Assembly: GCF_025642135.1 (NCBI RefSeq)
Contig: NZ_CP106793.1
Location: 6,726,001 to 6,790,000, forward strand
DNA length: 64,000 nt
Source: Streptomyces cynarae
GTDB lineage: Bacteria > Actinomycetota > Actinomycetes > Streptomycetales > Streptomycetaceae
Reading direction: 5' to 3'
Both the position numbers and the translations under genes were made by a program. Below, piece by piece: positions 35,632-47,345 of this stretch; within the stretch, counting starts at the first letter, position 1; every line of letters starts with the position of its first letter. Below the pieces are notes generated by a model that was not told where the DNA came from, did not search any database, and saw only the letters and a list, made by a program, of their open reading frames with translations.

Positions 35632-36369
35632 CTAGGCTCCGAGCGCCGTCAGTGCCGGAAGCCGGGCCTCGTCGTAGCGGTCGAGTACGGCCCGCGCCAC
35701 CTCCGGCGCGGGTCCCAATACCTCGGCCAGGACATCCGCCCCGGCCGCGCCCCGCGCGATGCGGTCCGGCAGGAAGCCGGGCGCCAGGACGTACGGCGCC
35801 ACGGCCACCCGGGAGCAGCCCAGCGCGCGCAGCTCGCGCACCGCGTCCTCGGTGCGCGGAAGGGATGCGGAGGCGAACGCAGGCCGCACGGCGCACCAAC
35901 CGGTGTGCCGCCACTCCCGCGCGATGTCAGCGATCACTGCGATCGCCTCCGGGTCGGTGGACCCCGCCGAGGCCAGCACGACCCCGGTCGAGGACTTGTC
36001 GGCGGGTGTCAGGCCCGCCTCGTACAGACGCCGCTCCAGGGCGGCGAGGAGCAGCGGCGACGGTCCCAGGACGTCCGCCTGCCGGATCCTCAGCCTTGGC
36101 GGCGCCTCCCGCAGGACCGCCGGGATGTCGGCCTTGGCGTGGAACGCTCGGGTCAGGAGGAGGGGGAGCGCCACCACGTCCCGGACGTCCTGAGCCGCCA
36201 GGGATTCCAGCACCCCCTGTACGGACGGGACGTTGAAGTCCAGGAAGCCGGTCTCCACGCGCAGCCCGGGCCGGAGCGACCGCACCCGCCGTACGAGGGC
36301 GTGCACGGTCGCGGCGTGCCGCGCATCGCGGCTGCCATGGGCGATCACGAGGAGGACCGGGTTGTGCAT
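35632..36369 (-). CDS. Sirohydrochlorin chelatase (CbiX/SirB type)
   Basis: 245 aa with two similar halves. Inserts metal into sirohydrochlorin; iron gives siroheme, the cofactor of the sulfite reductase encoded in the same cluster. Metal-binding His residues are in VIAHGSRDAR (about 10) and RAFHAKADIP (about 75), both in the N-half. The C-half (TGVVLASAGSTDPEA, VAPYVLAPGFL) keeps the fold but not the His pair. It starts 8 bp after the ssuC stop, so it is the last gene of that operon. Upstream uroporphyrinogen methyltransferase is not in the window. Confidence 0.88.
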   Translation of the reverse strand: MHNPVLLVIAHGSRDARHAATVHALVRRVRSLRPGLRVETGFLDFNVPSVQGVLESLAAQDVRDVVALPLLLTRAFHAKADIPAVLREAPPRLRIRQADVLGPSPLLLAALERRLYEAGLTPADKSSTGVVLASAGSTDPEAIAVIADIAREWRHTGWCAVRPAFASASLPRTEDAVRELRALGCSRVAVAPYVLAPGFLPDRIARGAAGADVLAEVLGPAPEVARAVLDRYDEARLPALTALGA

Positions 36370-36377
36370 GAGGCGGC

Positions 36378-37268
36378 TCAGCCCTTCACCAGCAGACCGC
36401 GGCTGCGCAGCACCCACCGCTCCAGCGGGCTGAAGATCAGCAGGTCGATGGCGATGCCGACGAAAAGGATCAGGATGATGGCCTCGAACACCATGGACAT
36501 GGAACTCGCGTTGCGGCCGTTCTCCAGCAGCGCGCCCAGGCCGATGCCGAGGTCGGGCGAGGAGGCGATGATCTCCGCCGCCATCAGCGAGCGCCAGGAG
36601 AACGCCCAGCCCTGCTTCAGCCCCGCCAGGTAGCCCGGCAGCGCGGCCGGCAGCACGATGTGCCAGGCGCCCCTCAGACCGGTCGCGCCCATCGTGCGGC
36701 CCGCGCGCAGGAACAGCGGCGGCACCTGGTCGATGCCGGAGACCAGGCCGTTGGCGATGGAGGGGACCGCGCCGAGCAGGATCACCGCGTACATCATCGA
36801 GTTGTTCAGGCCCAGCCAGATCACCGCAGGCGGCACCCACGCCACCGACGGCAGCGACTGCAGACCGGACAGGACCGGTCCGATGGCCGCACGCACGAAC
36901 TTCACCCGAGCCACCAGCAGACCCAGCGGGGTGCCGATCGCCAGCGCGAACAGGAAGCCGAGCAGACCACGCGAGACGCTCGTCCAGATGTAGCCGAGCA
37001 GCGTGCCCTGAAGCCAGGCGTCCTTGAACTCGCCCGCCACGGCGCCGGGGGAGGGCAGCTTGGTCGGGTCGTCGACGACCTTGAAGGAGATCAGCGCCTG
37101 CCACACCACCAGGACCAGCGCGATTCCCACGAGCGGCGGGAAGATCTTGTTGACGAAGGTCTGCCGGAACGGCGTACGACTGGTGACCGTGGTCTCCAGC
37201 GCGTCGAGACCGGCCTCCACACCGCCCAGTTCGGTGCCTGCCGTCGTCTTGGTCTCAGTGCTGGCCAT
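36378..37268 (-). CDS. ssuC: Sulfonate-type ABC transporter permease
   Basis: 296 aa, about six membrane spans. The ATPase-docking loop is AGRTMGATGLRGAWHIVLPAALPG near residue 195, of the SsuC/TauC/NrtB class. Reassigned start ATG 37268 has GGGGAGAT about 8 nt upstream and overlaps the end of the ATPase gene by 14 bp; ATG 37286 is upstream in frame. Its place beside sulfate assimilation genes supports a sulfur-source transporter. No SsuD/TauD desulfonating enzyme is in the window. Confidence 0.88.
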   Translation of the reverse strand: MASTETKTTAGTELGGVEAGLDALETTVTSRTPFRQTFVNKIFPPLVGIALVLVVWQALISFKVVDDPTKLPSPGAVAGEFKDAWLQGTLLGYIWTSVSRGLLGFLFALAIGTPLGLLVARVKFVRAAIGPVLSGLQSLPSVAWVPPAVIWLGLNNSMMYAVILLGAVPSIANGLVSGIDQVPPLFLRAGRTMGATGLRGAWHIVLPAALPGYLAGLKQGWAFSWRSLMAAEIIASSPDLGIGLGALLENGRNASSMSMVFEAIILILFVGIAIDLLIFSPLERWVLRSRGLLVKG

Positions 37269-38034
37269 GGCGGCGGATCTCCCCACGCAGTACTTCGGTG
37301 ATCTCGAGCGACAGCTCAGCGACGGGCGCGTCCTCGATACGGCGAGGCTGCGGAATGCCGACCGTCCACTCGCGGGCCACGCGCCCCGGGCGGGAGGACA
37401 GCAGCACCACGCGCTGCGCGAGCCGCACCGCCTCGCGCACGTTGTGCGTGACGAACAGGACCGACACGCCCGTCTCCTGCCAGATACGGGTCAGCTCGTC
37501 GTGCAGCAGGTCCCTGGTGATGGCGTCCAGCGCGGCGAACGGCTCGTCCATCAGCAGCAGCCGGCTGTCCTGCGCCAGCGCGCGGGCCATGGCGACCCGC
37601 TGACGCATACCGCCGGACAGCTCGTGCACGCGCTTGCCGTACGAGCCCTTCAGCCGCACGAGTTCCAGCAGCTCCTCGGCGCGCCCGCGCCGGTCGCTCT
37701 TCGGAACACCCCGGAGCTTCAGGGCGAGTTCGATGTTCTTGCCCGCGGTCAGCCACGGGAACAGCGCGTGCTCCTGGAACATCAGGGCCGGGCGGCCGTC
37801 CGTCGTGATGGAACCGCCGGTCGGCTTGTCCAGGCCCGCCACCAGGTTCAGCAGCGTCGACTTGCCGCAGCCCGAGGCCCCCAGGAGGGTGACGAACTCG
37901 CCCGGCGCGACATCGAGGCTGATGTCGTCCAGCACGAGCTGCTGCCCGCCCGGCACCGGGAAGGACTTCGAGACGTGCTCAAGGCGTGCCGCCTGGTCGA
38001 CGGACTCGGCGGCCGCGGCGAGGGTCGTGGCCAT
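37255..38034 (-). CDS. ssuB: Sulfonate-type ABC transporter ATPase
   Basis: 259 aa ATPase. Walker A is LGASGCGKST, Q-loop MFQEHALFPW, signature LSGGMRQRVAMARAL, Walker B LLLMDEPFAALD and switch His FVTHNVREAV. Closest class is nitrate/sulfonate/taurine importers. ATG 38034 is chosen over ATG 38058 because AGGAGGTGACGACC precedes it at ideal spacing. Sits between ssuA (36 bp upstream) and ssuC (overlapping). Confidence 0.93.
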   Translation of the reverse strand: MATTLAAAAESVDQAARLEHVSKSFPVPGGQQLVLDDISLDVAPGEFVTLLGASGCGKSTLLNLVAGLDKPTGGSITTDGRPALMFQEHALFPWLTAGKNIELALKLRGVPKSDRRGRAEELLELVRLKGSYGKRVHELSGGMRQRVAMARALAQDSRLLLMDEPFAALDAITRDLLHDELTRIWQETGVSVLFVTHNVREAVRLAQRVVLLSSRPGRVAREWTVGIPQPRRIEDAPVAELSLEITEVLRGEIRRHGQH

Positions 38035-38070
38035 GGTCGTCACCTCCTGGGAACTCATCGGCTGCGGGCT

Positions 38071-39183
38071 TTACTTGACGCCGAGACCGGCGTCGCTGAC
38101 GGTCGGCTCACCCTCGGCCTTGAGGACCTTGTTCAGGAGGGTGAGGTCGTAGATGCCGTCCAGCTGCGGGTCCTTCAGCAGACCCGCCTTGACCGCGTGC
38201 TGCGCCTCGGTGTCCAGGGTGGCGGCCAGCGGGTCGTCGGTGAACTGGATCGACTTCCACGCCGGGTCGAGGACCTTCGCCGGGAGCGCCTTGCCGGAGT
38301 CGACCGCCAACTGCTGGTTCGCCGCCGCCTTCGCCGCGTCCGGGTTGGCCTTGATCCACTTGTTGGTCTCGACGGACGCCTTCAGCACGGCCTCGACGGC
38401 CTTCGGGTGCTCCTTGAGGAACTTCTGCGACACGATGATGTTCGTGATCACGAACTTCTTGTCCGGCCACAGCGAGGACTCGTCCAGCAGCACCTTGCCG
38501 CCCTCGGCGACCAGCTTGGACGCGGTCGGCTCCGGCACCCAGGCGCCATCGATGGAGCCGGACTTGAAGGCGTCCGGGGTGACCTTGTTGTCGGTGCGGA
38601 CCACCGACACATCGCCCTTGCCGCTCTGCGCGTCGACCTTCCAGCCCTGCTCCGCGATCCAGTTGAGGAACGCCACGTCCTGCGTGTTGCCGAGCTGCGG
38701 GGTGGCGATCTTCTTGCCCTTGACGTCCGCCAGGGACTTGATCTTCTTCGGGTCGACCACGAGCTTCACGCCGCCGGACGCCGAACCGCCGATGATGCGC
38801 AGGCTCTTGCCGTCGGACTTGGTGTAGCCGTTGATCGCCGGGGAGGGGCCGATCCAGCCGATGTCGATGGAACCGGAGTTCAGCGCCTCGATCTCGGAGG
38901 GGCCCGCGTTGAAGATCTGGTACTTGGCCTGGGTGGCGCCGAGCGCCTTCTGGAAGAAGCCCTTCTGGACACCCACGAGCGCGGTGCCGTGGGTGAGGTT
39001 GCCGAAGTAGCCGATCTTGACGGAGTCGAGGCCGTCGATCTTCTGGGCGCCGGCGGCGACCTTCTGGTCCGAGGGGGTGCTGGTCGACTTGGAGCCGTAA
39101 CCGCACGCGGCGAGCGTGAGGAGCGGGAGAGCGGCGGCCACGGCTATGCCGCGGCGGAAGAGAGTCGAGCGGTTGGCAGGCAC
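38071..39183 (-). CDS. ssuA: Sulfonate-type ABC transporter binding lipoprotein
   Basis: 370 aa. The signal peptide has Arg-Arg followed by a hydrophobic core and the lipobox LLTLAAC. The body is an SsuA/NMT1-type binding protein (VKIGYFGNLTHGTALVGVQKG, IDIGWIGPSPAINGY, AWVPEPTASKL). GTG 39183 is chosen because GAGAGGAAC lies about 9 nt upstream and the signal peptide begins right after it; the frame continues to 39444 only through a repeat region. Ligand probably alkanesulfonates, but taurine or another sulfur ester is possible. Confidence 0.9.
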   Translation of the reverse strand: MPANRSTLFRRGIAVAAALPLLTLAACGYGSKSTSTPSDQKVAAGAQKIDGLDSVKIGYFGNLTHGTALVGVQKGFFQKALGATQAKYQIFNAGPSEIEALNSGSIDIGWIGPSPAINGYTKSDGKSLRIIGGSASGGVKLVVDPKKIKSLADVKGKKIATPQLGNTQDVAFLNWIAEQGWKVDAQSGKGDVSVVRTDNKVTPDAFKSGSIDGAWVPEPTASKLVAEGGKVLLDESSLWPDKKFVITNIIVSQKFLKEHPKAVEAVLKASVETNKWIKANPDAAKAAANQQLAVDSGKALPAKVLDPAWKSIQFTDDPLAATLDTEAQHAVKAGLLKDPQLDGIYDLTLLNKVLKAEGEPTVSDAGLGVK

Positions 39184-39266
39184 GGGAGGTGTTCCTCTCG
39201 TTGGCCCGGCGGTCACGGTCCTTCGGGTCGTGGCCGGGAGGTCGGCAAAGGTCTTCGTCGCTTCCG

Positions 39267-39352
39267 GGATGGGGGTACCTCCCTGCTCATGGGGGTCCCC
39301 CCGCTCGAGCGAAGCCGAGAGTGGGGGAGAAGCCGCGAGCTTGGGGGAGGGT
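39267..39352. repeat. G-rich palindromic Streptomyces intergenic repeat
   Basis: This segment contains ATGGGGGTACCTCCC, CATGGGGGTCCCCCC, GCTCGAGCGAAGCCGAGAG and TTGGGGGAGG, which pair into stacked hairpins. It lies between the ssuA start and the short ORF after cysN. A related copy is inside geoA. It may terminate transcription from cysN or stabilise the ssu mRNA leader. Confidence 0.65.
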
Positions 39353-39385
39353 GGGGGGACGGGGCGCGCAGGCAGTGCGCGTACG

Positions 39386-39490
39386 TCATCGCGCACATCG
39401 CGCCACTCCGCCCTGCCCGCTGCCGAGGGCGCCGCTGCCGACACGGCCGCCCTCCTTGGCGAACGTCGAGTAATAGCAGGTGGTGCTCAT
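39386..39490 (-). CDS. Candidate 34-codon ORF between cysN and ssuA
   Basis: It begins 2 nt after the cysN stop (39490 ATG) and would encode 34 residues starting MSTTCYYSTFAKEGG and ending RCAR, with two Cys and two Tyr codons. Codons up to about residue 28 have Streptomyces-like third positions. No strong Shine-Dalgarno is visible, so translation would depend on termination/reinitiation from cysN. It could be a leader sensing Cys supply ahead of ssuA, or a chance frame. No homologue is recognised. Confidence 0.4.
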   Translation of the reverse strand: MSTTCYYSTFAKEGGRVGSGALGSGQGGVARCAR

Positions 39491-39492
39491 GA

Positions 39493-40821
39493 TCAGAAGT
39501 CCCACCCGTCGTCGTCGGCCTCGTCCTTGACCGGCTCGGGCGTGGCGAACGACTCGCCGACCATGCCCGCGGTCAGCGTGGTGCCGTCGGACGGGTCGAT
39601 CAGGATGAACGAACCCGTGCGGCGCGAGTCCGCGTACGAGTCCACCGGCAGCGGCTCGGCGGTACGGATCTTCACGCGGCCGATGTCGTTGGCGACGAGC
39701 TGCCCCGGGTGCGGGTGCAGGGACAGGTCGTCGAGCGTGAGCCGGGACGGGATGTCCTTGACGATCGCCTTGACCGTGCGGGTTCCGTGCTTGAGCAGCA
39801 CCCGGTGGCCGACCGTCAGCGGCAGGTCGGCGACGTGGCAGACGGTCGCCTCGATGTCCTGGATGGTCGGCGGCGCGTCCTTGCTGGGCACGATCAGGTC
39901 GCCGCGCGAGATGTCGATGTCGTCCTCGAGGAGCAGCGTCACCGACTGCGGCGTCCAGGCCACGTCGACCGGCTCGCCCAGCAGGTCGATGCCGGAGACC
40001 TTCGTCGTACGGCCGGACGGCAGGACGGTGACCCGGTCGCCGACCCGGAAGGAGCCGGCCGCGATCTGACCGGCGTAGCCGCGGTAGTCGGGGTGCTCGG
40101 TGGTCTGCGGGCGGATCACGTACTGCACGGGCAGCCGCGCGTGGCAGTGCGCCAGGTCGTGGCTGACCGGAACGGTCTCCAGGTGCTCCAGGACGGTCGG
40201 GCCGCCGTACCAGTCCATGTGGGCGGACGGCTCGACCACGTTGTCGCCCTCGAGCGCCGAGATCGGGATCGCGGTGACCTCCGGGACGCCAAGCTCGGTC
40301 GCGTACGCGGTGAACTCCTCGGCGATCTCCGCGAAGACGGACTCCTGGTAGTCGACCAGGTCCATCTTGTTGACGGCGAGGACCACGTGCGGGACGCGCA
40401 GCAGGGCGGCGATCGCGGCATGGCGGCGGGTCTGCTCGACGACTCCGTTGCGGGCGTCGACCAGGATGACGGTCAGCTCGGCCGTGGAGGCGCCGGTCAC
40501 CATGTTGCGGGTGTACTGCACATGGCCGGGGGTGTCGGCGAGGATGAACCGGCGGCGGGGCGTGGCGAAGTAGCGGTACGCCACGTCGATGGTGATGCCC
40601 TGCTCGCGCTCGGCGCGCAGACCGTCCGTCAGCAGCGCCAGGTCCGGGCCCTCCTGGCCGCGGCTGGCCGAAGCCCGCTCCACGGCCTCCAGCTGGTCCG
40701 CGAGCACCGACTTGGAGTCGTGCAGCAGCCGTCCGACGAGGGTGGACTTGCCGTCGTCGACCGAACCGGCGGTGGCGAACCGCAGGAGGGTGGTGGCGGA
40801 GAGTTCCGTGGTGGTGGTCAT
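39493..40821 (-). CDS. cysN: Sulfate adenylyltransferase large subunit (GTPase)
   Basis: 442 aa. The GTPase domain of ATP sulfurylase drives APS formation by CysD. G motifs are GSVDDGKSTLVGRLL (P-loop), EREQGITIDVAYRYF (switch I region), DTPGHVQYTRNM (G3) and VNKMDLVDY (G4). EF-Tu-like domains II and III follow. There is no fused APS kinase; that is supplied by the separate cysC. It starts 2 bp after the cysD stop. The C-terminal tail is acidic (DEADDDGWDF). Confidence 0.97.
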   Translation of the reverse strand: MTTTTELSATTLLRFATAGSVDDGKSTLVGRLLHDSKSVLADQLEAVERASASRGQEGPDLALLTDGLRAEREQGITIDVAYRYFATPRRRFILADTPGHVQYTRNMVTGASTAELTVILVDARNGVVEQTRRHAAIAALLRVPHVVLAVNKMDLVDYQESVFAEIAEEFTAYATELGVPEVTAIPISALEGDNVVEPSAHMDWYGGPTVLEHLETVPVSHDLAHCHARLPVQYVIRPQTTEHPDYRGYAGQIAAGSFRVGDRVTVLPSGRTTKVSGIDLLGEPVDVAWTPQSVTLLLEDDIDISRGDLIVPSKDAPPTIQDIEATVCHVADLPLTVGHRVLLKHGTRTVKAIVKDIPSRLTLDDLSLHPHPGQLVANDIGRVKIRTAEPLPVDSYADSRRTGSFILIDPSDGTTLTAGMVGESFATPEPVKDEADDDGWDF

Positions 40822-40823
40822 GG

Positions 40824-41762
40824 CTAGAAGTACCCCTCGCGCTTGCGGTCCTCCATGGCGGCCTCCGAGAGCTTGTCGTCGGCCCGGGTCGCGCCCCGTT
40901 CGGTCAGCCGGGAGGCGGCGATCTCGGTGATGACCTGCTCCAGGGTCACCGCGTCGGAGTCGACGGCACCGGTGCAGGACATGTCACCGACGGTGCGGTA
41001 GCGCACGAGGCGCCTCTCGACCGTCTCGCCGTCCTTCGGGCCGCCCCACTCGCCGGCGGTCAGCCACATGCCGCCCCGCTGGAACACATCGCGCTCGTGT
41101 GCGAAGTAGATCTCCGGCAGCTCGATGCCCTCCCGGGCGATGTACTGCCACACGTCCAGCTCGGTCCAGTTCGACAGCGGGAACACGCGCACGTGCTCAC
41201 CGGGCGCGTGCCGCCCGTTGTACAGCTGCCACAGCTCGGGGCGCTGACGGCGCGGGTCCCACTGCGAGAACTCGTCCCGCAGCGAGAACACCCGCTCCTT
41301 GGCGCGCGCCTTCTCCTCGTCGCGCCGCCCGCCGCCGAAGACGGCGTCGAACCGCTCGGACTGGATCTTCTCCGTCAGCGGCAGCGTCTGCAGCGGGTTG
41401 CGGGTGCCGTCCGGGCGCTCCTTGAGCACACCGCGGTCGATGTAGTCCTGCACGGAGGCGACATGCAGCCGCAGGTTGTGCTTCGCCACCGTGCGGTCGC
41501 GGTACTCGAGGACCTCGGGGAAGTTGTGCCCGGTGTCCACGTGCAGCAGCGCGAACGGCACCGGCGCGGGCGCGAACGCCTTCAGCGCCAGGTGCAGCAT
41601 GAGGATGGAGTCCTTGCCGCCGGAGAAGAGGATCACCGGGTTCTCGAACTCGCCCGCCACCTCGCGGAAGATGTGCACCGCCTCGGACTCGAGGGCGTCC
41701 AGGTGGGAGAGGGCGTACGGGCTGCTGTCCGTGCCCCCCTGGATACCGGCGACGGTCGTCAT
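40824..41762 (-). CDS. cysD: Sulfate adenylyltransferase small subunit
   Basis: 312 aa PP-loop ATP pyrophosphatase catalysing ATP plus sulfate to APS. The PP motif FSGGKDSILMLHLALKAF, HVDTGHNFPEVLEYRD and FGGGRRDEEKARAKERVFSLRDE are characteristic. The C-terminus RKREGYF is highly conserved. ATG 41762 overlaps the stop of an upstream 32-codon ORF as ATGA, so cysD is translationally coupled to that ORF rather than directly to cysC. Confidence 0.97.
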   Translation of the reverse strand: MTTVAGIQGGTDSSPYALSHLDALESEAVHIFREVAGEFENPVILFSGGKDSILMLHLALKAFAPAPVPFALLHVDTGHNFPEVLEYRDRTVAKHNLRLHVASVQDYIDRGVLKERPDGTRNPLQTLPLTEKIQSERFDAVFGGGRRDEEKARAKERVFSLRDEFSQWDPRRQRPELWQLYNGRHAPGEHVRVFPLSNWTELDVWQYIAREGIELPEIYFAHERDVFQRGGMWLTAGEWGGPKDGETVERRLVRYRTVGDMSCTGAVDSDAVTLEQVITEIAASRLTERGATRADDKLSEAAMEDRKREGYF

Positions 41763-41857
41763 GCTGCGCCCCTTTCGTTCGCTTCTCCGCCCACGCGGCG
41801 CAGAGGTGCGGCCATCGGCGTCGTCTGCGGCTGAGCGGCCGCGTGTGCGTCGCTCAC
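41759..41857 (-). CDS. 32-codon translationally coupled ORF between cysC and cysD
   Basis: It starts with GTG overlapping the cysC stop (GTGA) and stops in ATGA with cysD. A good Shine-Dalgarno, GGGG followed by ACTCCT, precedes it at 6 nt. The predicted peptide begins MSDAHAAAQPQTTP and ends GGEANERGAA; it is Ala/Gln/Pro-rich with no Cys. It has Streptomyces codon bias. It could be a real small protein or serve only to carry ribosomes from cysC to cysD. Unrecognised by family. Confidence 0.65.
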   Translation of the reverse strand: MSDAHAAAQPQTTPMAAPLRRVGGEANERGAA

Positions 41858-42390
41858 AGGAGTCCCCTTTCGCTGAGCAGCGCGTACACGGACGCCGCGG
41901 ACTCCTGTACGGTCTGGTGCTGCGACTCGATCCGCAGGTCCGGCGACTCGGGCTCCTCGTACGGGTCGTCGACGCCCGTCAGGCCCTTCAGCTCGCCGGC
42001 GGCCTGCTTGGCGTACAGGCCCTTCACATCGCGTACCGAGCACACATCGACCGGGGTGGCCACGTGCACCTCGAGGTACGCCGTGCCGTTCTGCTGGTGG
42101 CGCTTGCGCACCGCCTCCCGGCTGTCCGCGTACGGCGCGATGACCGGGACGAGGGCCTTGACACCGTTGCTGGCCAGCAGTTCGGCGACGAAGCCGATGC
42201 GCTGCACGTTGGCGTGCCGGTCCTCCCGGCTGAAGCCGAGGCCCGCGGAGAGGAACTCGCGGATCTCGTCGCCGTCGAGCACCTCGACCCGGTGGCCCTC
42301 CTCGCGCAGCCGGCCCGCCAGCTCGTGGGCGATGGTGGTCTTGCCCGCGCTCGGCAGACCCGTGAGCCAGACGGTGGCTCCGCTCGTCAC
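41854..42390 (-). CDS. cysC: Adenylylsulfate kinase
   Basis: 178 aa. Phosphorylates APS to PAPS. P-loop is GLPSAGKTTIAHEL, then VLDGDEIREFLSAGLGFSREDRHANVQRIGF, the APS-binding region, and the lid YAKQAAGELKGLTGVDDPYEEP. GTG 42390 is favoured over ATG 42414 because AGGAG lies about 7 nt upstream and because it starts at the family N-terminus. The reductase in this operon looks APS-specific, so CysC may mainly supply PAPS for sulfotransferases. Confidence 0.93.
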   Translation of the reverse strand: MTSGATVWLTGLPSAGKTTIAHELAGRLREEGHRVEVLDGDEIREFLSAGLGFSREDRHANVQRIGFVAELLASNGVKALVPVIAPYADSREAVRKRHQQNGTAYLEVHVATPVDVCSVRDVKGLYAKQAAGELKGLTGVDDPYEEPESPDLRIESQHQTVQESAASVYALLSERGLL

Positions 42391-42416
42391 GTGTGTCTCC
42401 TGAATCTCTGTCATGG

Positions 42417-43127
42417 TCAGCCGTGCAGCCCGCACTCGGTCTTGGCACGGCCCGCCCAGCGGCCGGCGCGTGCGTCCTCGCCCTCAAGGACCCGGCGGGT
42501 GCAGGGCGCGCAGCCGACGGAGGCGTAGCCGTCCATCAGCAGGGGGTTGGTCAGCACGCCGTGCTCGGCGACGTAGGCGTCCACGTCGTCCTGCGTCCAG
42601 CGGGCGATCGGCGAGATCTTGACCTTCTGCCGCTTCTCGTCCCAGCCGACGACCGGGGTGTTCGCCCGGGTGGGGGACTCGTCGCGGCGCAGGCCGGTCG
42701 CCCAGGCGTCGTAGCCCTTGAGGCCCTCCTCCAGCGGCTGGACCTTGCGCAGCTTGCAGCACAGGTCGGGGTCGCGGTCGTGCAGCTTCGGGCCGTACTC
42801 GGCGTCCTGCTCGGCGACCGTCTGGCGCGGGGTGAGCGTGATGACGTTGACGTCCATCACGGCGTCCACCGCGTCGCGGGTCCCGATGGTCTCCGGGAAG
42901 TGGTAGCCGGTGTCGAGGAACACCACGTCGACGCCGGGCATCGCGCGCGAGGCGAGGTGGGCGACCACCGCGTCCTCCATGGACGAGGTCACGCAGAAGC
43001 GCTTGCCGAAGGTGTCGGCCGCCCACTGGAGGATCTCCAGTGCGGAGGCGTCCTCCAGGTCACGGCCGGCCTGCTCGGCGAGCGCCTTCAGCTCCTCGGC
43101 CGTCCGTTCCGTCTGAGTCGTGCTCAT
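42417..43127 (-). CDS. cysH: Adenylylsulfate (APS) reductase, 4Fe-4S type
   Basis: 236 aa. Reduces APS to sulfite with thioredoxin. The iron-sulfur ligands are the CC of LCCKLRKV and CAPC in SVGCAPCTRRV, the pattern that marks APS rather than PAPS reductases. The catalytic Cys is in the C-terminal TECGLHG. ATG 43127 has GAGGGG about 8 nt upstream and overlaps the zinc-ribbon gene stop as ATGA. Confidence 0.95.
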   Translation of the reverse strand: MSTTQTERTAEELKALAEQAGRDLEDASALEILQWAADTFGKRFCVTSSMEDAVVAHLASRAMPGVDVVFLDTGYHFPETIGTRDAVDAVMDVNVITLTPRQTVAEQDAEYGPKLHDRDPDLCCKLRKVQPLEEGLKGYDAWATGLRRDESPTRANTPVVGWDEKRQKVKISPIARWTQDDVDAYVAEHGVLTNPLLMDGYASVGCAPCTRRVLEGEDARAGRWAGRAKTECGLHG

Positions 43128-43303
43128 ATCTCGTCCCCTCCGCTGTCGGCTCGCTGAAGCCCCTGGGCGAGCAGCCCGAGGAACTTCAACTGGAAGGCTC
43201 GATTGCACGCCGCGCATTCCCACGCGCCGTGGCCCGCTTCGCTCGGACGCAGGTCCTCATCGCCGCAGTAGGGGCAGTAGAAGGGGGCGGCACGCTCGCT
43301 CAC
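43124..43303 (-). CDS. 59-aa zinc-ribbon protein between cysI and cysH
   Basis: A small protein with two CxxC knuckles, FYCPYCGDED and WECAACNRAFQLKF, typical of a zinc ribbon or rubredoxin-like fold, followed by a short helix LGLLAQGLQRA. The GTG start overlaps the cysI stop (GTGA) and its stop overlaps cysH (ATGA), with GAGGAGG upstream. It is therefore made stoichiometrically with sulfite and APS reductases. It may be a metal or electron-transfer accessory, or an assembly factor; no function is established that I can name. Confidence 0.9.
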   Translation of the reverse strand: MSERAAPFYCPYCGDEDLRPSEAGHGAWECAACNRAFQLKFLGLLAQGLQRADSGGDEI

Positions 43304-44991
43304 GACAACGCCTCCTCGGAAGCGCGGGAAGCCCAGGTCGCGAACCGCTCGCCGTCCTCGCGCTCCGCCTGGTAGCGCTTGAGGACCCGCTCGATGTAGT
43401 CCGGCAGTTCCTCCGCGGTGACCTTCAGACCGCGGACCTTGCGGCCGAACCCGGCCTCGAGGCCGAGCGCGCCGCCCAGGTGCACCTGGTAGCCCTCGAC
43501 CTGCTCGCCCTTGTCGTCGAGGACCAGCTGGCCCTTGAGACCGATGTCCGCCACCTGGATACGGGCGCAGGCGTTCGGGCAGCCGTTGAGGTTGATGGTG
43601 ATCGGCTCGTCGAAGTCCGGCAGGCGCCGCTCCAGTTCGTCGATGAGCGAGGAACCGCGCTGCTTGGTCTCGACGATGGCGAGCTTGCAGAACTCGATGC
43701 CGGTGCAGGCCATGGTGCCGCGCCGGAACGAGGACGGCTTGGCGGTGAGGTCGAGCGCCTCCAGGCCGTCGACCAGGGAGTCGACCTGCCCCTCCTCGAC
43801 ATCGAGGATGATCATCTTCTGCTCGACGGTGGTGCGGACCCGGCCCGACCCGTGGGCCTCCGCGAGGTCCGCGATCTTCGTGAGCGTGGTGCCGTCGACG
43901 CGGCCGACGCGCGGGGCGAAACCGACGTAGTAGCGGCCGTCCTTCTGGCGGTGGACGCCGACGTGGTCGCGCCACTGCTGGACGGGCTGCTCGGGAGCGG
44001 GACCGTCGACCAGCTTCCGCTTGAGGTACTCGTCCTGAAGCACCTGGCGGAACTTCTCGGCGCCCCAGTCGGCGACGAGGAACTTAAGACGGGCCCGGTT
44101 GCGCAGCCGCCGGTAGCCGTAGTCACGGAAGATCGACAGGACGCCCTCGTAGACGTCCGGGACCTCCTCCAGCGGCACCCACGCGCCCAGTCGCACGCCC
44201 AGCTTGGGGTTGGTGGACAGACCGCCACCGACCCACACGTCGAAGCCCGGCCCGTGCTCGGGGTGCCGTACGCCGACGAACGCCACGTCGTTGATCTCGT
44301 GGACCACGTCGAGGAGCGGCGAGCCCGAGATGGCGGTCTTGAACTTCCGGGGGAGGTTCGAGTACGCCTTGTTGTTCAGGACGCGGCGCTTCATCTCCTC
44401 CAGCGCCGGGGTGGCGTCGATGATCTCGTCCTCGGCGATGCCGGCGACAGGGGAGCCGATCATCACACGGGGAGTGTCACCGCAGGCGGTGACCGTGGAC
44501 AGGCCGACGGCCTCCAGGCGGTTCCAGATCTCGGGCACGTCCTCGACCTGGATCCAGTGGTACTGGACGTTCTGCCGGTCGGTGATGTCGGCGGTGCCGC
44601 GCGCGAACTCCTGCGAGATCTCGCCGATGACGCGCAGCTGCCCGGTGGTGAGCGCTCCGCCGTCGATGCGGACCCGCATCATGAAGTACTCGTCGTCCAG
44701 CTCCTCCGGCTCCAGGATCGCGGTCTTGCCGCCGTCGATCCCGGGCCTGCGCTGGGTGTACAGGCCCCACCAGCGCATGCGGCCGCGCAGGTCGTTGGGG
44801 TCGATGGAGTCGAAGCCCGCCTTGGAGTAGATCGTCTCAATGCGTGTCCGCACATTGAGACCGTCGTCGTCCTTCTTGAACTGCTCGTTGCCGTTGAGCG
44901 GGGTGAAGTGACCTGCGGCCCACTGACCCTCGCCACGGTGACGGCTCACCTTGCGGCGGGGCGTGGCGGGATTCTGCGGGGTGGCGGCCAT
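43300..44991 (-). CDS. Ferredoxin-dependent sulfite reductase (siroheme/4Fe-4S)
   Basis: 563 aa. Six-electron reduction of sulfite to sulfide. Two nitrite/sulfite reductase half-domain repeats are visible. The [4Fe-4S]-siroheme ligands are ACTGIEFCK and NGCPNACAR near residues 430-475. DRQNVQYHWIQVEDVPEIW and TACGDTPRVM are typical of the actinobacterial NirA/CysI class. ATG 44991 has GAAGGA about 10 nt upstream. It is first structural gene of the cluster, preceded by a leader peptide ORF and hairpins. The chelatase at 35632 would supply siroheme. Confidence 0.94.
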   Translation of the reverse strand: MAATPQNPATPRRKVSRHRGEGQWAAGHFTPLNGNEQFKKDDDGLNVRTRIETIYSKAGFDSIDPNDLRGRMRWWGLYTQRRPGIDGGKTAILEPEELDDEYFMMRVRIDGGALTTGQLRVIGEISQEFARGTADITDRQNVQYHWIQVEDVPEIWNRLEAVGLSTVTACGDTPRVMIGSPVAGIAEDEIIDATPALEEMKRRVLNNKAYSNLPRKFKTAISGSPLLDVVHEINDVAFVGVRHPEHGPGFDVWVGGGLSTNPKLGVRLGAWVPLEEVPDVYEGVLSIFRDYGYRRLRNRARLKFLVADWGAEKFRQVLQDEYLKRKLVDGPAPEQPVQQWRDHVGVHRQKDGRYYVGFAPRVGRVDGTTLTKIADLAEAHGSGRVRTTVEQKMIILDVEEGQVDSLVDGLEALDLTAKPSSFRRGTMACTGIEFCKLAIVETKQRGSSLIDELERRLPDFDEPITINLNGCPNACARIQVADIGLKGQLVLDDKGEQVEGYQVHLGGALGLEAGFGRKVRGLKVTAEELPDYIERVLKRYQAEREDGERFATWASRASEEALS

Positions 44992-45045
44992 GGTGGATAC
45001 GTCCTTCGGGACAGGCAGGAGAGCGGCTCTGACCTGCGCGCGCGG

Positions 45046-45065
45046 GCGCACGAGAAGATGTGCGC
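45046..45065 (-). promoter_or_regulatory. Hairpin GCGCAC-N8-GTGCGC in the sulfite reductase leader
   Basis: A perfect 6-bp stem with an 8-nt loop lies between the leader peptide stop (45115) and the sulfite reductase start (44991). Its position fits the anti-terminator/terminator or sequestering element of a leader-peptide attenuator. No T-run follows. Confidence 0.4.
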
Positions 45066-45114
45066 GTCCTTGCGCGAGGGTGGAAAAGGGGGAAACCGGA
45101 CTGGCTGGAGGCTG

Positions 45115-45198
45115 TCAGCTCGCCGGACAGATGGCGCTGGACATGCGGCCGAGATCGACGTGCCGTCGACTCACCAAGGCAATTCCAGTTCCGGACAT
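45115..45198 (-). CDS. 27-codon cysteine-type leader peptide upstream of sulfite reductase
   Basis: ATG 45198 to TGA 45115, 124 bp before the sulfite reductase start. The peptide contains SRRHVDLGRMSSAIC followed by PAS and the stop. The RRHVDL...SAxC pattern matches short actinobacterial leader peptides annotated before sulfur genes. The Cys codon (TGT) sits 3 codons before the stop, so ribosome stalling on low charged tRNA-Cys is a natural regulatory mechanism. An in-frame TGA lies four codons before the ATG, so it is not part of a longer frame. No clear Shine-Dalgarno is seen. Confidence 0.8.
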   Translation of the reverse strand: MSGTGIALVSRRHVDLGRMSSAICPAS

Positions 45199-45250
45199 GA
45201 CGGAAGCGTGTCATGGCGATCTGGACACAGTCCAGCTTCATCCACCATGC

Positions 45251-45287
45251 GGACACCCTTGTCCCGCTATGTGAGACTAGGGTGTCC
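45251..45287. promoter_or_regulatory. Inverted repeat GGACACCC-N21-GGGTGTCC upstream of the leader peptide
   Basis: A perfect 8-bp dyad lies 53 bp before the leader peptide ATG and 39 bp after the GNAT stop. Read on the minus strand it encloses TAGTCT and CATAGC, which resemble -10 elements. It may be an operator for the cys cluster or a terminator for the GNAT gene; sequence alone does not decide. Confidence 0.5.
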
Positions 45288-45325
45288 TCGGTCACATCGC
45301 CCGGACGCGCTCGCGTCCGCGCAGG

Positions 45326-45898
45326 TCAGAGGCCGTGCGCCCCTGGCCAAGGACCCGGTGCGGCAACTTCCGCCTGCTCCTCGACCTTGGTGTCGAACAG
45401 CCGGAACCCGCGGCGGCGGTAGTTCTCCATCGCGTGCTCCCCGTCCAGGCTGCACGTATGCAGCCACACCCGCTTCGTCGGCGTCCGCCGCGGCCAGCGG
45501 TCCGCGAGGTCCCAGGCGCGCGCGGTCCCGTACGACAGCAGGTGCCCGCCGATCCGCCGCCCCCGGAAGGCCGGCAGCAGCCCGAAGTAGACGATCTCCA
45601 CGACCCCGTCGTCCTGCGGCTCCAGCTCGACGTATCCCGCGGGTGTGCCCCGGTCGTAGGCGACCCAGGTCTCCACGCCCGGCCGGTCCAGGTGCTCCTG
45701 CCAGCGTGCGTACGTCCAGCCGAGCCGGTCGATCCAGCGGATGTCCCCACCGACCGACGCGTACAGGAACCGGCTGAACTCCGGCGACGGCACCTCGGCG
45801 CGGACGATCCGGACATCGCCCTCGGGGGTCGCGGCGGGCAGTAGATCGCTCGGGGACGTCTGCTCCAGGGACCACGTGGTCACGGTCATGCTGCTCAT
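45326..45898 (-). CDS. GNAT-family N-acetyltransferase
   Basis: 190 aa. The acetyl-CoA site is in VYFGLLPAFRGRRIGGHLLSYGT (R-x-x-G-x-G/A variant), preceded by the beta-strand VEIVYFGL and followed by WLHTCSLDGEHAMENYRRRGFRLFDT. Substrate unknown. ATG 45898 and ATG 45889 are both possible; neither has a good Shine-Dalgarno. It is upstream of the sulfur cluster on the same strand but separated by about 130 bp that contain a dyad, so it is probably independent. Confidence 0.88.
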   Translation of the reverse strand: MSSMTVTTWSLEQTSPSDLLPAATPEGDVRIVRAEVPSPEFSRFLYASVGGDIRWIDRLGWTYARWQEHLDRPGVETWVAYDRGTPAGYVELEPQDDGVVEIVYFGLLPAFRGRRIGGHLLSYGTARAWDLADRWPRRTPTKRVWLHTCSLDGEHAMENYRRRGFRLFDTKVEEQAEVAAPGPWPGAHGL

Positions 45899-45968
45899 GC
45901 GGTCAGGGAATCACGAGGGCGAGCGGTACGACAAAGGGCCCCGGCACCCTGCCCGGCCGGTCGGCGCG

Positions 45969-47345
45969 CTACTTCAGGGCGTCGTCCACCGCGTCCAGGG
46001 GCACCGCGTACAGCACCCGCCCGTCGGCCGGCCCCGATCCGTCGCCGCTCGCCGCGCCCTCCGTGAGCGTCCACAGCTCGCCCGTCTCCCGCCAGTACGA
46101 CAGGGACGCGGTGTGCCGACCCCAGCAGGCGTGCGTCCCGTCGGCCGCACAGGTGGCCGTCTGCGCGCCGGAGGTGGTCTGCCGCCACAGCGTGCCGTGC
46201 CGACCGCCGACCGAGGGCGCGCGGTCGACGTACCAGTCGGTCCGCACCGCCCCCTCGCGCCGGTGCGACAGTACGCCCTGCACCCCGGCCGCCGCCGTCT
46301 CGTAGGCCTCCGTCGCCCTGACGTCGCCGTGGGCGTCCGTGGCGAGCAGGCCCGCGCGGCCGGGCGCGGTGCTGAACGCGTACCGCCACACCCGGGCCGT
46401 CCGCCCGCTGCCCCCGGGGCGCGGCGACTCGCTCGCCACCAGGCTGGCCGGGACGGTGGTGCGGTCGAGGGAGAGCGTGGTGAAGCAGGGCACCCCGTGG
46501 TCGTCGGCCGCCGAACAGGGGCCGCCGGTCAGCCGGTAGGAGCCGACCGTCGGCAGCACGTACTGGTAGCCGTCCGCCGCGTAGCCGCCGTCGACCCGTC
46601 CGATCGCGGTGCTGTCGACGTTCGCCCGCAGTATCCGGTGCAGGTCGAACACCAGCAGCGAGTCGCGTGCGGTGACGAATAGTTTGTCCCGGTACCACAC
46701 CATGCCGGACAGGCCGGTGCGGACGGCGGTGAAGTTCTGGCCCCCGTCGCGCGGGGCCGCCAGCAGGACCCAGCGGTAGGCGAGTCGGTAGGGGTCGTCG
46801 GCGTCGACGAAGGCGACCCTGGCGAAGCCCCGCTCGGCTGCCGGGCCGCCGGGGCGGTCCTGGTGCGTCCAGCCGGACAGGATGACCCGGTCCGGGCCCC
46901 ACAGGCCGTCGGCCTCGGCGTCCCCCGAGGTGGTCACGGACCGCGGCACCCACTGCGGGGTCGTCGCGTCGCCGTGGTCCCAGCAGTACGCGCGCGTGGC
47001 GGTCGGCCGCACGGGCAGCGCGGCGGTCTCGGCGGCGTCGCACGCGGACAGGTCGCGCATGGTGCGGTCGGCGGAGGAGAGCACGCCGTGGACGTCGACG
47101 GCGCCGCCCATCGCGCGGGTGAGCGCGTCGAGGGCGCGGTGGTCGGTGAGGTCCTCGTGGAGGCGGAGCTTCGCGGTCTCGGCCGCCGAGGTGACGCGGG
47201 TCAGGCTCCCGGGGTTGTCGCCGCCCGCGGCCTGCGAGGTGCTGATCAGCGTGGCGGCAGCGGTCAGCGCCAGCGCGGTGCCGGCCAGCGTCGCCCGCAG
47301 TGCACGCCCCCGGCGCCTGCGGCGGTGCCTGCCACGGTGCTTCAT
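45969..47345 (-). CDS. Secreted protein of unknown function
   Basis: 458 aa. Arg-rich N-terminus, then the hydrophobic core ALRATLAGTALALTAAATLIST and a likely cleavage after SQAAG. The mature part has repeated W/Y-rich strands (DGLWGPDRVILSGWTHQD, GMVWYRDKLFVTARDSLLVFDLHRI, WRYAFSTAPGRAGLLATDAHG) suggesting a beta-propeller, and paired Cys. No catalytic motif was recognised. ATG 47345 has GGGAGG 5 nt upstream. Flanked by a GNAT gene and a GAF regulator on the same strand, without obvious link. Confidence 0.75.
   Translation of the reverse strand: MKHRGRHRRRRRGRALRATLAGTALALTAAATLISTSQAAGGDNPGSLTRVTSAAETAKLRLHEDLTDHRALDALTRAMGGAVDVHGVLSSADRTMRDLSACDAAETAALPVRPTATRAYCWDHGDATTPQWVPRSVTTSGDAEADGLWGPDRVILSGWTHQDRPGGPAAERGFARVAFVDADDPYRLAYRWVLLAAPRDGGQNFTAVRTGLSGMVWYRDKLFVTARDSLLVFDLHRILRANVDSTAIGRVDGGYAADGYQYVLPTVGSYRLTGGPCSAADDHGVPCFTTLSLDRTTVPASLVASESPRPGGSGRTARVWRYAFSTAPGRAGLLATDAHGDVRATEAYETAAAGVQGVLSHRREGAVRTDWYVDRAPSVGGRHGTLWRQTTSGAQTATCAADGTHACWGRHTASLSYWRETGELWTLTEGAASGDGSGPADGRVLYAVPLDAVDDALK

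Follow-up and report, generated by a model that had tools for sequence, protein, structure and literature searches.

The sulfite reductase locus and its leader ORF

The window analysed here, a 64,000-nt stretch of the Streptomyces cynarae genome (NZ_CP106793.1, positions 6,726,001 to 6,790,000), contains a nitrite/sulfite reductase gene with a short ORF ahead of it and further sulfur genes after it, all on one strand. The features at the locus are:

45198..45115, minus strand: leader ORF of 27 codons, ATG start, TGA stop, encoding MSGTGIALVSRRHVDLGRMSSAICPAS
45172..45174, minus strand: in-frame GTG, a possible alternative start that would yield MSRRHVDLGRMSSAICPAS; GTG in 81/81 loci
45144..45167, minus strand: codons 11-18, RRHVDLGR, conserved peptide motif (NF042934 match and alignments)
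45127..45129, minus strand: codon 24, the TGT for Cys, proposed as the sensor (codon conservation)
45002..45006, minus strand: Shine-Dalgarno (SD) AAGGA of the sulfite reductase gene (sequence)
43300..44991, minus strand: nitrite/sulfite reductase gene, corresponding to cysI in the S. coelicolor cluster (homology and SCO6102)
35632..43127, minus strand: zinc-ribbon-like small ORF, cysH, cysC, cysD, cysN, SsuA-type binding protein, ABC ATPase, ABC permease and a last ORF (NCBIfam search, last ORF excepted)

The NCBIfam cut-offs were passed by cysH, cysC, cysD, cysN and SsuA. The reductase, ABC ATPase and ABC permease passed none, no equivalog reaching its cut-off for the reductase, so that the name 'sulfite reductase' rests on its position and on SCO6102, which is called cysI in PMC4340878.

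A sequence-only reading of this DNA had described, with no strand given, a 27-codon ORF with a lone TGT three codons before its stop, 124 bp ahead of the sulfite reductase gene. Such an ORF is present on the minus strand: the sole Cys of MSGTGIALVSRRHVDLGRMSSAICPAS is TGT at codon 24, TGA follows three codons later, and 123 nt lie between the leader stop and the ATG at 44991. The peptide matched the NCBIfam model NF042934 "putative leader peptide" (cis_reg_atten) at 32.9 bits (E 3.3e-8; curated cut-off 27 bits), with residues 7-24 aligned to profile positions 2-19 of 19, and a six-frame search of the genome recovered it at 31.4 bits. Against NF042936 (Ms4527A Cys-rich leader) it scored 28.2 bits, under the curated cut-off of 45. 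Pfam had no model for the peptide, and Rfam covariance models run over 40000-47000 gave no match up to E 1. On the basis of the profile match, the ORF is a conserved member of NF042934, and its identification as a leader peptide is borne out by this recognised family and by the conservation of frame and Cys codon described below. The remark that routine gene finders would miss so short an ORF calls for a qualifier: an NCBI model covers exactly this peptide.

Conservation across Streptomyces and related families

Conservation was assessed over 81 Streptomyces sulfite reductase loci, comprising this one and the 80 best returned by a search for relatives; these 80 are the closest relatives, so that deep divergence lies outside this sample. 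The frame was intact and the TGT present in 81/81, with the ATG and the GTG each at constant codon positions throughout, while the distance from leader to gene varied between species from 112 to 251 nt. The first motif pattern fitted 79 of the 81, and the remaining two (L038 and L045) have an intact ORF with an L to H change inside the motif; the RRHVDL...C peptide which the sequence-only reading had wished to see aligned in other Streptomyces is thus kept, with one residue changed in these two. A second sample took 60 genomes from the order, and the region 5' of the sulfite reductase gene was read in 50 of them. The leader was present in all 36 Streptomyces genomes (one, L199, with L to H) and one genome of family f49 carried MHRAGFLLVGRPHVDFGRMSSAFCCMPVR with TGT at the same place, whereas none of the 13 loci of family f50 showed a leader by two simple patterns. 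The sulfite reductase genes of family f50 (L186-L198) often retain an AAGGAC SD despite this. Commonest-codon use in the leader core was 0.962 against a maximum of 0.961 among 105 sulfite reductase windows, a thin margin that is not relied on. Judged from these alignments, the 27-codon ORF on the minus strand is genuine and strongly selected.

Promoter, start and upstream sites

The region upstream of the leader contains the following proposed elements:

45205..45210, minus strand: proposed -10 element CACGCT, 6 nt before the leader ATG; same place in 69/81 loci
45229..45234, minus strand: proposed -35 element TGGACT, 18 nt from the -10; 76/81 loci
45240..45254, no strand assigned: NdgR-like site, positions -56 to -42, 14/15 match to the motif published in PMC4340878
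45251..45287, no strand assigned: inverted repeat GGACACCC...GGGTGTCC, possible operator; a loose pattern fits 44/81 loci

A generic sigma-70 scan found no promoter. The constant spacing of the proposed -35 and -10 elements, which ends 6 nt before an invariant ATG, fits a leaderless transcript as far as sequence can indicate, and leaderless transcripts make up about 21% of S. coelicolor primary transcripts. In leaders of the cysO type, TANNNT preceded an in-frame ATG or GTG by 5-8 nt in 33/33 cases, compared with 0/246 control frames; the same layout was found in 0/29 dioxygenase-type leaders, 0/15 luciferase-like leaders and 43/123 of all leaders at loci other than sulfite reductase. The NdgR-like site scored at least 13 of 15 in 75/81 loci versus 2.2% of shuffles, and the paper that published its motif (PMC4340878) reports NdgR binding upstream of SCO6102. 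The inverted repeat upstream of the leader promoter, which often takes the form ACACCCTTGTCYC...GRGACAAGGGTGT in relatives, is distinct from the NdgR-like site.

Copies of the leader before other sulfur genes

Eight NF042934 matches above the cut-off were found in the S. cynarae genome, this leader included, mostly before sulfur or cysteine genes. By Pfam, the neighbouring genes encode a ThiS family protein and PLP enzyme (CysO-CysM type), cysteine dioxygenase, a luciferase-like monooxygenase, flavin reductase, FMN reductase, an ABC permease and a rhodanese. Further copies below the cut-off (L010 and L009, L013) precede ROK, GST and ABC permease genes, and in the copy before the GST gene Ser codons replace Cys at the key position. 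All 41 Streptomyces genomes gave a match above the cut-off. Across the phylum, at least 10 of 149 genomes matched at E 0.001 or better, at least 7 of them above the cut-off, and 10 of 14 control genomes also gave matches at E up to 10, none above the cut-off. In other Streptomyces and members of the class (L102, L104-L107, L268, L284, L144 and L283), the leader stands before genes that resemble, by eye, sulfatase, taurine dioxygenase, DUF1684 and symporter genes.

At one S. cynarae locus (L006:1738-1797), the leader's CTCCTGTTGC is matched by an SD, GCAACAGGAG, behind which a frame of just 20 codons precedes the FMN reductase gene; as relatives have an SsuD-like gene at this spot, the frame may be a remnant.

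The proposal that the leader controls the whole cys cluster is thereby strengthened in part, since the leader heads a one-strand run of cys and sulfonate-uptake genes, and the predicted motif copies before other sulfur genes fit cysteine control.

Conserved residues and the TGT codon

The R-x-H-V-D-L-x-R motif lies 6-13 residues ahead of the conserved Cys codon. The residues that recur over 23 gene groups (R-4, H-2, V-1, D, L, R+3, S+6, A+7 and C+9) do so with changing synonymous codons, R being encoded by five codons, L by three and D by two. This recurrence points to selection on the peptide, to the extent that hits picked by the same motif can indicate it.

Codon choice at the key position carries no bias from the search, since a protein model cannot prefer TGT to TGC. 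From 145 loci submitted, three without the motif (L109, L138 and L143) and seven without a gene call were set aside, leaving 135 with codons, of which 132 have TGT and one each TGC, AGC and GTT. TGT thus occupies the position in 132 of the 133 leaders having Cys there, compared with 24/157 other Cys codons of the same leaders (Fisher p 4e-56, which ignores shared ancestry), 6/407 Cys codons in 80 sulfite reductase genes and 12/129 in the called genes of the window. Because of that shared ancestry the count of gene groups is the safer measure, and TGT is the majority codon in 22 of the 22 groups with Cys at the key position. TGT may be retained through slow wobble reading of UGU or through base pairing of its last U; slow wobble reading is perhaps the likelier, going by the groups without matching SD letters.

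Possible base pairing with the Shine-Dalgarno region

Several RNA segments, within the leader ORF and between it and the sulfite reductase gene, were considered as regulatory elements:

45139..45144, minus strand: candidate anti-SD segment (a), AUGUCC; 96.1% of cells paired with GGACGU, no covariation
45125..45129, minus strand: candidate anti-SD segment (b), UGUCC at the Cys codon; 97.4% of cells paired with GGACG, no covariation
45055..45114, minus strand: C-rich, G-poor first 60 nt past the leader stop, possible Rho-loading stretch; C minus G 0.27
45046..45065, no strand assigned: GCGCAC/GTGCGC hairpin (arms 45046-45051 and 45060-45065), one of three competing GCGC pairings

Complementarity between leader ends and SD regions was tested with 124 leaders in 19 gene groups, assigned to families via sequence patterns or by eye, leaving out leaders without a family and six with clearly wrong starts (L261, L262, L102, L114, L226 and L270). 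Leader ends matched their own SD region better than those of other groups did (permutation p 0.002-0.006 across families): in the energy test, 115 of 20000 permutations equalled the matched versus mismatched difference, and the mean contiguous run was 5.12 in matched versus 4.67 in mismatched families (p 0.0017). The segment limits were chosen after seeing L002, L003 and L006, and repeating the tests without these three gave 116 and 110 of 20000. When the dioxygenase group was also removed the signal fell to 685 and 365 of 20000. Leaders of the cysteine dioxygenase type had a mean run of 7.59 versus 4.80, which none of 18 other leader families equalled, and 23 of 32 have in common CCGTCCTG against CAGGACGG. 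For the sulfite reductase leaders the excess was weak (run 4.92 versus 4.57; 3/18 other leader families do as well), and no compensatory changes were found in their AUGUCC or UGUCC pairs with GGACG(U). The cysO, sulfatase, sseA, ssuE and one ssuA family showed no excess SD complementarity.

The 214-nt leader fold was no better than shuffles (z -1.16; 27/200 shuffles as good), and RNAalifold predicted 24 pairs, none with two-sided change, in a set of 38 sequences (this locus and 37 of the 80 others, spans up to 185 nt, nine near-repeats dropped by eye). The three GCGC pairings, which exclude one another, are paired in 86.8, 85.7 and 94.1% of cells with covariation not clearly beyond shuffles. 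The GCGCAC/GTGCGC hairpin singled out in the sequence-only reading, which accounts for the 85.7%, does lie between leader and gene, but as an attenuator switch it was rejected: 49/500 shuffles reach its covariation score, and no terminator-like site was found at 44900-45400.

The stretch after the leader stop had a mean C minus G of 0.26 over the 81 loci, and C exceeded G over its first 60 nt in all 12 gene families (family means 0.48 C and 0.27 G). The corresponding value was 0.006 (sd 0.124, n=32) for upstream regions of the window, a small control drawn from this window alone, with the stretch placed differently.

A putative leaderless, cysteine-responsive translational attenuator

Taken together, the leader is somewhat better than evenly likely to be a leaderless, cysteine-responsive translational attenuator, akin to the polycysteine leaders of mycobacteria though with a single Cys codon. 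This reading is favoured because of the conserved frame and codon, the family membership, the copies before other genes of the genome, the promoter-like conservation, the NdgR-like site upstream, the SD complementarity over families, the lack of an intrinsic terminator and the mycobacterial precedent. In such a system, RNA polymerase would start at or beside the leader ATG and a ribosome would translate the leader immediately. With Cys-tRNA plentiful, the ribosome would clear the TGT and exit at the TGA, whereupon the 3' part of the leader, now free, would fold back onto the sulfite reductase SD and keep translation low. With Cys-tRNA scarce, it would wait at the slow UGU and cover AUGUCC and UGUCC, leaving the SD free so that the cys genes would be made. 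Untranslated mRNA with its C-rich tract could possibly also be cut short by Rho, deepening the off state. Against an attenuator of this type at the sulfite reductase locus stand the weak complementarity of its own leaders, the lack of compensatory change and a fold that does not surpass shuffles, as well as the families with no excess complementarity, the drop in signal once the dioxygenase group is removed, the missing TANNNT in dioxygenase and luciferase-like leaders, the empty generic promoter scan and the loci of family f50, where two simple patterns found no leader.

Transcription could instead be the level of control. Under Rho-dependent attenuation, enough cysteine would let the ribosome leave, and Rho would load on the C-rich stretch and terminate, whereas a stalled ribosome would bar it. 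The C-rich, G-poor composition after the stop in every family agrees with this, as does the proposal of Rho for mycobacterial cys leaders in Seliverstov 2005. However, a ribosome stalled at codon 24 would shield little of that stretch, the control composition comes from few and differently placed sequences of a single window, and the SD complementarity would be left unexplained; Rho-dependent attenuation is regarded as unlikely. A classical attenuator, with the GCGC repeats as segments 1-4 of competing hairpins, would account for three pairings that exclude each other, yet their covariation stays within the range of shuffles, a T-run terminator was not found at 44900-45400 and the spacer changes in length between species, so that this explanation is hardly credible. 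Nearly as improbable is an ORF that has no regulatory role and owes its conservation to the promoter and to NdgR control of the operon. The conserved NdgR-like site and promoter elements, with NdgR binding reported upstream of SCO6102, would suit it, but the conserved codons are located 3' of the promoter, frame and TGT are kept at all 81 loci, and the same peptide recurs before unrelated genes.

The motif itself could be what stops the ribosome. Conserved residues of the arrest peptides TnaC, SecM and ErmCL occupy a tunnel zone 6-13 residues ahead of the stall site, and the present motif has the same spacing from its proposed stall codon; it differs from them in that the likely sensor is a sense Cys codon, with stalling only proposed. 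If the motif slowed or stopped the ribosome from within the exit tunnel and cysteine or a related signal decided the outcome, the RNA part of the mechanism may be the same as in the translational attenuator. Conservation over 23 gene groups despite synonymous change supports such arrest, and a lone Cys codon is thin for a sensor based on a codon run. The amino-acid conservation is partly circular among members found by a protein model of the motif, and the link to cysteine is drawn from the codon and the gene context, with stalling predicted from sequence, so that nascent-peptide arrest appears quite improbable. A combined version is doubtful though worth stating: a cysteine gauge in which the nascent chain assists a single codon, where the motif would hold the ribosome and a single slow UGU, read by wobble, would suffice to report the Cys-tRNA level. 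The module, placed by copying ahead of about twenty unrelated sulfur genes, would then form a peptide-wired cysteine regulon in place of a repressor.

Relation to known leaders

Among known systems, the translational attenuator proposed here most resembles the cysteine leaders of Mycobacterium smegmatis (Canestrari 2020, as described in a review), whose mechanism a 2026 paper calls translation attenuation. As far as these sources and NF042936 describe them, the mycobacterial ORFs are leaderless and are likewise short cysteine leaders before sulfur genes with a shared motif; the Streptomyces leader may be leaderless too. The mycobacterial ORFs carry a run of Cys codons, whereas the Streptomyces leader has a single TGT and no such run. 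Two leaders of another family in the same class (L131 and L132) have the motif followed by a Cys run, as in the polycysteine leaders. Ribosomes were found on one mycobacterial leader, before cysA2, in Shell 2015. Cysteine leaders without terminators were predicted in mycobacteria, Propionibacterium and Bifidobacterium in Seliverstov 2005; these are also short ORFs with Cys codons near the stop and no conserved terminator, but they have Cys-codon runs, and the section on cysteine mentions no Streptomyces.

In its re-annotation, S. lividans is given eight leader peptides, none ahead of a cysteine gene. One leader of that species, before metNIQ (MSTTSDRTPATEATTTPGARCMCRRMCAF; metL in Table 4 of PMC8079986), was assigned to methionine; with three Cys at its end, it could just as well respond to cysteine.

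The NF042934 model provides a name for the peptide; mechanism, target genes and a codon rule do not appear in its output. A search of the open-access literature, with subscription journals largely outside it, found no paper on this leader in Streptomyces. What is new here is the rule of a single, nearly always rare (TGT) Cys codon, together with its use on many sulfur genes. The near-invariant rare UGU makes a clean, testable claim on sensor codons for which UGC is a natural control, and the leader set offers a natural series from one Cys codon up to a Cys run. If the reading is true, Streptomyces would run much of its sulfur assimilation, sulfonate use and cysteine turnover via a repeated leader peptide that has been overlooked in standard genome papers.
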